Shown here in pieces: positions 20,838 through 25,285 of a stretch of DNA of 64,000 nucleotides; the first letter of the stretch is position 1; each line of letters begins with the position of its first letter. The notes below the pieces were generated by a model. That model was not told the DNA's origin and made no database searches. It worked only from the letters and a program-made list of their open reading frames with translations. This DNA comes from Blastocatellia bacterium. Lineage in GTDB: Bacteria; Acidobacteriota; Blastocatellia; HR10; J050. Both the position numbers and the translations under genes were made by a program. The DNA lies in assembly GCA_026985075.1 (NCBI GenBank), contig JALSQX010000105.1, positions 124,001 through 188,000 of the forward strand, written 5' to 3'.

Positions 20838-21977
20838 TCATTCCACGACACCGCTGACCGGTATCTTCAGTTCGGCGAACTCCTTGTCGTTGGTTCGCAC
20901 GAGAATGAATCCATCGAACGGGCCAGGCTTGAGTTCATCCTGGGCCAATGTCACCTTGATGCGATACGGGAACCGATCGCGCTGAGGCGCGATGAGCTCC
21001 GTCTTCACGAAGGGTAAGGTCGACTTCGCCTCGATGACCTTGAACCCCTCGGTTTGACTGCGGACGCTGATCGTCCGGTTGAGCAGAAAACGACTGTTGG
21101 GATTATTGGCCAGCGAAGCTCGATGAATGCGCCCGAACGTCAATCGCTCCGGCAGTGCCTGCACCCGCTCGGTGACCATGACCATCACCGGGATGCGCAG
21201 TTGAGGAGATTTCTGGTTATTGGTCGTCACGGTGACCGTGGTGTGATACCGGCCGCCGGTAGATTGAGGTTTGAGCTTCACATCGACCTCGTAGCGTTTT
21301 CCCGCCTCGATCGTCCGAACCCGGGCAGTGAAGTCGCGGTTGCTCGACTCCGCGTCGAGAATTTTCAGTGGAGTCCGATCATTATTGGTGATGGTGATCT
21401 TGGCCTCCGCGGGTTCGCCCTTGTTGATCCGCAGTGAGACGTATTGAGGATCGAAATCAACGAGCCGCGTGACGGTTCCTTTGATGAACAGTTGGACAAC
21501 CGGTCGCACGGGATCATTAGAAAAGACCCGCGCCGATTTCTGGATGTTCCCATGGAGTCGATCCGTCTTCACGGTGAGCGTGATCTTTCCCTCCTGACCA
21601 GGAGGCACGACTTTGGTGAAGTCGCTGACCGTGCATCCTCAGCCAGGCTTCACGCGTTCGATGACCAGATCGGCCTTCCCTGTATTGACCACGCGGAAGG
21701 TATGGGTGATCTCCGTGCCCGCCTGCACCGTCCCAGCATTATACGTCGTCTCGGAGAAAACGGCCTGAGGATGATTTTCTCCTTCGGCGGCGGAGGACGA
21801 AGTCGTTTGACCGTTCTGGTCGCTGGCAGCGGTCGTCGATGGTGATTGGGGGGACCGGGTGGTCGCGTGGGCGCGCGTGGCATTCTCCGAAGCCCCCGTT
21901 GAGCAAGCCGTCGCCGTCAACATCGTCAGAAGCACGCCGAAGATGGCGAAGGGTCGTACATGTTCTCTGCCGCTCAT
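20838..21977 (-). CDS. DUF1573 lipoprotein with in-frame TGA at the conserved cysteine: candidate selenoprotein
   Basis: Read as one gene, this gives 379 residues with TGA (21641-21639) as residue 113. The N terminus has a lipoprotein signal (FGVLLTMLTATAC, Cys25) and a low-complexity Ser/Thr linker. A DUF1573 domain then spans the TGA: FRVVNTGKADLVIERVKPG, then TGA, then GCTVSDFTKVVPPGQEG. In this family the same place normally reads CGCT, so TGA replaces the first cysteine of the CGC motif. The frame continues for 266 clean codons after it, with further Ig-like repeats (FSNDPVRPVVQLFIKGTV). A selenocysteine next to Cys115 would form a U-x-C redox pair outside the inner membrane. Alternatives are a nonsense mutation or a sequencing error. 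A hairpin with a GGTC tetraloop follows (21605-21590). ATG 21977 has GGGAGG 7 bases upstream. Confidence 0.75.
21590..21605 (-). promoter_or_regulatory. Hairpin downstream of the TGA, possible SECIS element
   Basis: On the minus strand, six base pairs (CCTCCT/AGGAGG) close a GGTC tetraloop, the same apical loop as the E. coli fdhF SECIS. The loop starts 39 bases after the TGA, farther than the roughly 18 in fdhF, and the bulged U of that element is missing. It is therefore only suggestive. Confidence 0.3.
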
Positions 21978-22015
21978 ATCAATTCCTCCCTTTGACGTCT
22001 CACATCCTGCCGTCC

Positions 22016-22987: not shown

Positions 22988-25285
22988 CTATTGGGTTTGG
23001 CGTGACGAGCGTTTCTCTCCCTCCAGGAGCTTGGCCACCATCTGTGGATCAGTCGTGGGGAGTTGGCAGGCGTAATTCTGGCAGATGTAAGCGGTGGCTT
23101 TCCCGTCGATCATTTTCACCTGCTTGAGGAAGGGGATGCGCTGGCTGAGATATTCCTGGCCCGCGCCACCGTCGGCCAAGAGGAGAACTTTGTTCGGGAG
23201 ATACCGCTCATACATTACCCGAAGCAAGCGCCGGGTATCTGCTCCCTCAGGCTTCCCGGCGATGATGATCTGTTTCGGTTTGTCTAAATAGAAGTCGAGC
23301 GCCACGAGCATCTGAGGGAGAGATGGAGGGTGTTGCTCGAGTCGCTCGCTGAACAGCATCAGGGTGGTTTCGGCCATGCGGCGCCACTGTTGGTGATTGA
23401 GCATCTCGGAGAGGCGCAGGAGGTTCAGTGCGGCGATCGAATTTCCGGAGGGCTCGGCGCCGTCATAGTCTTCTTTTGTGCGGACGAGAAGCGTATCGCT
23501 GGGAACCGTATCGAAGAAACCGCCCTCTTTCCGATCGGAGAACAGGCGGATCTGCCGCTCGGTGAGCTGAACGGCCTGCTCGAGCCAGCGGATGTCGAGA
23601 TCCGCTTCGTAGAGATCCAGGAGCGCCATCACCAGAAAGGCATAATCTTCCAGATGAGCGTCAAAGCGCGCTTCCCCTGCTCGATACCGCCTGAGCAGGC
23701 GTCCCGTCTTGGAATCATAGAGTGTGGTCAGGATGAACGTCGTCGCTTTCTTGGCCGCCTGGAGATAGGCGGGCTCTCCGAGCACTTGATACGCGCGGGC
23801 GAGCGCCGAGATCATCAACCCATTCCAGGAGACGAGAATCTTATCGTCCAGATGAGGTCGCGGTCGTTGCTGGCGAGCGGCCAATAGCCGGGTCCGCGCC
23901 TCGGCGAGCAACTTCTCGATCTCCTGTTTCGACTTATGGAAGCGTTTGGCCACATCCTCGACGGTGTGCGCCACGTAGAGGATGTTCTTGCCGACGAAAG
24001 CGCCATGAGGGTCTTCGGGCACGTTCCCGTCGGGCTGAACGCCGTAATAATAATTGAAGATGGCCGCTCGTTCCTTTCCCAGAAGACGTTCGATCTCATC
24101 GTGCGTCCACACATAGAAGGCGCCCTCTCGTTTCTCTTCGGGATGGGACGGATCGAGGGCGCTCTCGGCATCTTCTGCGGAATAGAATCCGCCGTTCTCG
24201 CTGGTGAGGTGTTGCCGCACGTAACGGAGGATGTCGCGCGCCACCGAGGCATAAAACTCGTCGTGGGTGATCTGGTAGGCTTCCAGATAAGCGCACACGA
24301 GTTGGGCCTGATCATACAGCATTTTCTCGAAGTGCGGGACCCGCCACGCCCGGTCGACGGCATAGCGATGAAATCCGCCTCCGAGGTGATCGTAGATACC
24401 ACTTTGGGCCATGCGACGCAGTGTGGAGAGCGTCATGTGAAGCGCCCTCGGTTCGTTGAATCGGTGGGAGTATCGCAGGAGAAAATAGAATGTCGCCGGT
24501 CGAGGAAACTTCGGTTTCACGCCGAATCCACCGTACTGCTCGTCGTATTGTTCATGAAACGCCTCGAATCCCTTGGTGAGGATCGTCTCGTTCAGGGCGA
24601 CATGACGACCGCTCACCACCGCGCGTTGTTTGAGGAATTCGGTGAGTCGCTCGCTGGAAGTGAGAATCTTCTCCGGCTCCGTGATCCAGAGCTGGTGAAT
24701 GCGCTCGATGAGCGAGCGGAATCGTTCCGGGGGAATATAGGTGGCTCCGTAAAAAGGCTTCAGGTCAGGGGTGAGGAACATCGACATCGGCCAGCCTCCG
24801 CTACCGGTCAACGCCAGCAGGGCCGTCATGTATACGCGATCGACGTCCGGTCGTTCCTCCCGATCCACTTTGATATTCACAAAATATTCGTTCATCAGGG
24901 CGGCGATCTCTTCGTCTTCGAAGACCTCTCGCTCCATCACGTGGCACCAGTAGCAGGTCGAATACCCGATGGACAAGAAGATCGGTTTATTCTCTTTCCG
25001 CGCCCGTTGGAATGCTTCCTGGCCCCAGGGATACCAGTCGACGGGATTGAAGGCGTGTTGAAGGAGGTAAGGACTTTTTTCGCGAATGAGTCGATTCGGC
25101 TTTTTGCCTTGACGCCGTTGTCGAGCGATGAAGGCCATCATCGAATCACTCCGTTGCGCATCGTTGAAACGAGTCCCGCGAGATGAGGGGGCTCGTTTCG
25201 CCGACATGAACGCCATCATCACTCCTCCACCGAGGAGGAGAAAACCGAGGCTGATGATGAGCGCCGCTCTCTTTTTTTCGCTCAT
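22988..25285 (-). CDS. SSP411/YyaL-like protein (DUF255 thioredoxin fold plus (alpha/alpha)6 barrel), membrane-anchored
   Basis: A protein of 765 residues. An N-terminal helix ([20 protein letters not shown]) acts as a signal anchor, so most of the protein should lie outside the inner membrane. A DUF255 thioredoxin-like domain follows ([20 protein letters not shown], then the CYWC active site at Cys111 and Cys114, and [16 protein letters not shown]). The rest is a glycosidase-like helical barrel ([34 protein letters not shown]). The molecular activity of the family is not settled; it is usually described as thioredoxin domain-containing. The membrane anchor is not universal in the family. The gene ends the minus-strand run that begins with the efflux genes and may be transcribed with them. 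Confidence 0.9.

Follow-up and report, generated by a model that had tools for sequence, protein, structure and literature searches.

The window, that is, the whole 64,000-nucleotide stretch of Blastocatellia DNA analysed here, carries on its minus strand a DUF1573 gene whose frame starts with ATG at 21977-21975 and ends with TGA at 20840-20838. The sole in-frame interruption is a second TGA at 21641-21639 (codon 113 of 379), in the protein context VERVKPG-U-GCTVSDF; 266 sense codons separate it from the final stop, and no other lesion was seen in the frame. All this agrees with the first-pass annotation, which had also claimed a ribosome binding site; we find GGGAGG, separated from the ATG by 7 nt. 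The features of the locus are the following.

20838 to 21977, minus strand: three-domain DUF1573 gene, 379 amino acids with one predicted selenocysteine codon, candidate lipoprotein (sequence, Pfam, AlphaFold2 model)
21985 to 21990, minus strand: ribosome binding site (sequence)
21471 to 21758, minus strand: DUF1573/OS_HP2 Ig-like domain with the U-G-C motif (Pfam PF07610, NCBIfam NF041425)
21639 to 21641, minus strand: UGA, predicted to be read as selenocysteine 113, the first residue of UGC (TGA kept across genera, opposite Cys in homologues)
21607 to 21625, minus strand: hairpin H1, GCGACUU-CACCA-AAGUCGU, putative spacer helix (fold energy, compensatory changes)
21590 to 21605, minus strand: hairpin H2, CCUCCU-GGUC-AGGAGG, putative SelB-binding SECIS hairpin (fold energy, compensatory changes)
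21171 to 21458, minus strand: second Ig-like domain, HYDIN/ASH-type (profile matches and AlphaFold2 model)
20841 to 21170, minus strand: third Ig-like domain (AlphaFold2 model)

Pfam PF07610 (DUF1573) matches residues 74-169, with 115 bits for the whole protein. The AlphaFold2 model contains three Ig-like domains, with pLDDT mostly between 80 and 95 beyond residue 70, and places U113-C115 between two strands. Fold searches returned ciliary HYDIN-type and other Ig-like repeats at low TM-scores; the top bacterial match among the matches listed was 2qsv of Porphyromonas gingivalis, a protein of unknown function that has similar Ig-like repeats but only 18% identity over 221 alignment columns. A sequence search of the PDB gave no usable match. 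At the amino terminus, a lipobox-like LLTMLTATAC-S (ATAC with Cys25) was read from the sequence by eye. This lipobox is imperfect; a Cys relative of the same family has LSGC, and most relatives resemble ordinary proteins with a signal peptide. The protein may be anchored in the membrane as a lipoprotein.

The in-frame TGA had been proposed to stand in place of the first cysteine of a CGC motif, and a search of 58 relatives bears this out. A genome of the same genus has the gene at 91% identity; there too it is interrupted by this TGA alone, and its downstream half is intact. About 18 other genomes of the class have TGA at this codon, TGA-bearing genes occur in many further genera, and the remaining homologues have TGC or TGT at the same column. 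In the phylum as a whole, many families have genes of the TGA form. The first-pass annotation had left open a nonsense mutation or a sequencing error, in which case the true codon would be Cys or the gene dead: TGA is one base away from TGC and TGT, and Cys is the usual residue at this place in DUF1573 proteins. Since independent genomes share the same TGA, a sequencing error is very unlikely. The conservation of this codon in the same-genus genome and in many genera and families, ahead of intact downstream halves, also argues against a dead gene, as do hairpins specific to UGA genes and bearing compensatory changes (see below). We therefore regard this explanation as extremely improbable, and as excluded in practice.

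The machinery for selenocysteine insertion, which remained to be looked for, is complete. In this genome (98.7% complete), profile searches detect selB (371 bits), selA (577 bits) and selD (369 bits), and there is a tRNA-Sec (selC) with anticodon tca (UCA); selD is itself of the Sec type, its own frame having a TGA in the GUACK motif. The UGC form was found in 19 of the 162 genomes of the class; selB is present in 17 of them, the other two being fragmented assemblies. Because almost all genomes of the class have selB (132 of 162), its presence alone is not specific. In another scenario, a near-cognate tRNA, for Trp or Cys, reads through the UGA with the aid of mRNA structure, and no selenium is involved; it is general textbook knowledge that downstream structure can aid stop-codon readthrough. 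Against it stand the complete selABCD set, the Cys present in homologues and the earlier prediction of the family as Sec-containing, and we consider it very improbable. Given the conserved TGA, the sel genes, the match to a selenoprotein family model and the UGA-specific hairpins, UGA 113 is almost certainly decoded as selenocysteine, an insertion predicted here from sequence.

The selenoprotein status of DUF1573 is not new in kind. The first-pass annotation knew of no characterised selenoprotein in this family; the family had nevertheless already been predicted as one. The protein scores 127.2 bits against NCBIfam NF041425, 'OS_HP2 family (seleno)protein', for a curated cut-off of 100. A DUF1573 selenoprotein with the motif UGC appears in two reviews (PMC9312934, PMC13188914), the first of which credits the 'UGC' prediction to the 2007 study of the Olavius algarvensis symbiont by Zhang and Gladyshev. 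A 2008 ocean metagenome survey includes OS_HP2 (pfam07610, UxC; PMC2398784). Our protein has the domain and the U-G-C motif in common with OS_HP2 and NF041425, but differs from OS_HP2 in being three-domain and acidobacterial. No description of an Acidobacteriota radiation of UGC DUF1573 proteins, or of their SECIS, was found in the literature searched.

The mRNA downstream of the UGA was analysed in 57 UGA genes gathered across Acidobacteriota, with 36 CGC homologues from the same phylum as the comparison set. For the window gene alone, fold energy relative to synonymous codon shuffles is a weak test. Taken as a whole, its 54-nt region does not stand out in stability for its composition (z -0.98). 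Within it, H1 has -6.5 kcal/mol, a value that none of 200 shuffles reaches; H2, with 6 bp and a GGUC loop, has -7.9 kcal/mol. What proved informative instead was to score H1 and H2 separately in UGA and CGC genes. With stability of H1 defined as -4 kcal/mol or below, all 57 UGA genes (100%) have a stable H1, versus 22% of the 36 CGC genes, and H1 and H2 are found together in 91% of UGA genes versus 19% of CGC homologues. The corresponding Mann-Whitney tests give p = 9e-15 for H1 and p = 1.6e-10 for H2, values that overstate independence, the sequences being related.

Compensatory changes were counted in each subgroup apart, because H1 pairs in another register in each subgroup and therefore appears poorly paired when all UGA genes are put into a single alignment. 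Subgroup A (25 sequences, including the window gene) contains 18 cells with a two-sided change that preserves pairing, versus 3.1 in shuffled alignments, and a covariation score of 0.214 versus 0.056. Subgroup B (22 sequences) has 27 two-sided pair changes versus 10, and a score of 0.312 versus 0.141. Sliding the pairs abolishes the covariation in both. In subgroup B the register of H1 is shifted by 4, and 3 extra nucleotides are present in subgroup C, so that the helix is conserved where both the sequence and the encoded residues (SDFTKV, AEFDSV, ALLSAK) vary.

For H2, the GG of the loop is weak evidence alone, because the glycine codon also demands it. The codon chosen is more telling: GGU is used in 39 of 57 UGA genes versus 4 of 36 CGC genes (p = 4e-8), which points to selection acting on the loop itself. 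The weight given to H2 rests on this bias and on stem covariation, not on the GG.

The geometry of the two hairpins is constrained. H1 starts 9-14 nt past the UGA (about 13 nt in the window gene), the gap between H1 and H2 is 0-1 nt in 43 of the 53 genes in which both were parsed, and the H2 loop starts 38-43 nt past the UGA in all 53, at 39 nt in the window gene. The first-pass annotation had noticed a single hairpin with a GGTC loop, starting 39 bases after the TGA. That hairpin is H2 and it is real, although it is its loop that begins at 39 nt, the stem beginning at 33 nt; H1, lying between the TGA and H2 (21625-21607), had been missed. The distance had been held against a SECIS, but it turns out to belong to a two-hairpin design conserved in UGA genes.

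According to a review (PMC13188914), the bacterial SECIS model of bSECISearch places the loop 16-37 nt after the UGA, with a G in the first two loop positions, a loop of 3-9 nt, a stem of 4-16 bp and an energy of -7.5 kcal/mol or below. H2 resembles this canonical element in its loop G, loop size, stem and energy, but falls outside the 16-37 nt spacing, and an additional conserved hairpin separates it from the UGA. The SelD genes of five relatives offer another comparison: their signal, which is less clear in the window genome's own SelD, is a single hairpin with a GGUC loop 26 nt past the UGA. The apical GGUC is common to these hairpins and H2, presumably for the same SelB, whereas the DUF1573 signal differs by its second hairpin and its more distant loop. 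The Rfam SECIS_1 covariance model (RF00031) has no match here and none in the control genomes either, so that this result carries little weight. Set against the published model and the SelD of relatives, the mRNA signal looks new.

How could such a signal direct recoding? SelB, with Sec-tRNA(Sec), would decode UGA 113 under the direction of a bipartite SECIS, in which H1 would lie near the mRNA entry of the ribosome and H2 directly after it. H2 would offer its GGUC loop to SelB, to which we infer that it binds, and H1 would act as a rigid spacer, probably stacked on H2, compensating for a loop at 39 nt from the UGA. The position of the loop itself would be fixed by Pro-Gly codons (CCN GGN) that are conserved in the protein. 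These codons, onto which the GG of the loop falls, are also present in the Cys homologues, and the protein may therefore have fixed the place of the loop; as a hypothesis, H1 may have made this protein-fixed position workable.

Alternatively, selenocysteine may be inserted with only one of the hairpins acting as the SECIS, either H2 at long range or H1 without a loop G, the other being regulatory or kept for other reasons. Taken singly, H1 falls inside the published 16-37 nt spacing and H2 has a loop of the expected kind, and the register of H1 varies between subgroups. Conversely, conservation and covariation are seen in both hairpins, the loops of H1 have no conserved G, and H2 by itself is out of range. 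We consider such a single-hairpin SECIS rather unlikely, and the two hairpins probably act as one unit. Somewhat less firmly, we favour the view that they define a distinct SECIS class used by Acidobacteriota, in which a spacer H1 abuts a SelB-binding H2 about 39 nt from the UGA, shaped by the fixed Pro-Gly codons of DUF1573 and maintained despite changes of register and a shift from UGC to U-C (see below). Our overall reading, which concerns chiefly selenocysteine decoding and the existence of a conserved two-hairpin signal, and sets protein function aside, is held with high confidence.

The two-hairpin signal broadens the range of geometries published for bacterial SECIS elements. In one test, the standard search program misses 13% of known selenoprotein genes (PMC12013277). 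A wider geometry could help explain why genes are missed in this way and why annotation may treat them as truncated. It also raises a testable physical question, namely whether a helix placed between the recoded codon and the loop that binds SelB can take the place of linear distance.

A covariance model of both hairpins was run over the 162 genomes, and its matches are DUF1573 genes with one exception (L264), which lies in a ParA-like gene and which we rejected as due to chance. In the window, only the DUF1573 site stands above noise (78.8 bits, the next being 10.8). The model led to a subfamily derived from DUF1573, with six genes found by the model and one by the motif (L160-L166; G017:C5, G040:C239, G036:C97, G010:C1, G025:C238, G029:C80, G021:C73). 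Its members have a vicinal U-C, mostly as APSUC, with an insert before the motif, and keep the two-hairpin signal, in which CCTGGTCAGG is invariant; two members were scanned and score 36 and 41 bits, under the NF041425 cut-off of 100. Small single-domain UGC proteins (L155-L159), with the motif PSUGCTxVDFPKV, are encoded alongside the three-domain form, and several genomes therefore have two or three DUF1573 selenoproteins. Four homologues were found on plasmids, in Bacteroidota, and none in the viral contigs searched.

When the motif and SECIS columns are left out of the tree, the Sec and Cys forms need 6 changes, or 4 if only well-supported branches are trusted, this being a quick tree with some long branches. 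The closest relative of the window gene outside its genus is a Cys form from the same family, without the hairpins. One genome has tandem Cys and Sec copies (L039, G003:C153 8934-11172), and the Cys copy retains a decayed H2 and signal (E = 7e-7), which suggests a reversion from Sec to Cys after duplication.

U113 is a clear candidate for an active or ligand residue in DUF1573, a family of unknown function. In the same class, a CGC-type DUF1573 is fused to glutathione peroxidase (L040, G022:C131; 301 aa; DUF1573 78 bits, GSHPx 151 bits), and this fusion is the best pointer to a redox role. A thiol/selenol redox function outside the inner membrane, in which a selenenylsulfide would form between U113 and C115, has in our estimate an even chance of being correct. 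The main rival to this role is a selenoprotein in which the UGC site serves to bind a metal (Cu, Hg) and takes no part in redox catalysis. CxC motifs are, as textbooks have it, frequent metal ligands, and the neighbourhood contains no conserved redox partner; yet Sec is found mostly in redox sites, and the glutathione peroxidase fusion also speaks against metal binding, which we retain as possible but doubtful.

Among the relatives compared, no conserved operon or redox neighbour was found, the neighbours being mostly housekeeping genes that differ between families. In the window, a DUF255/thioredoxin-like protein with a CYWCH motif is encoded two genes upstream (22988-25285), with no sign of a shared operon. 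In several genomes of one family (f8; L030, L054, L055), a radical SAM protein (MPRIGIELNNVCNLDCTHC) adjoins the UGC gene; the pair is convergent where strands were mapped (L054, L055), and probably reflects plain synteny.
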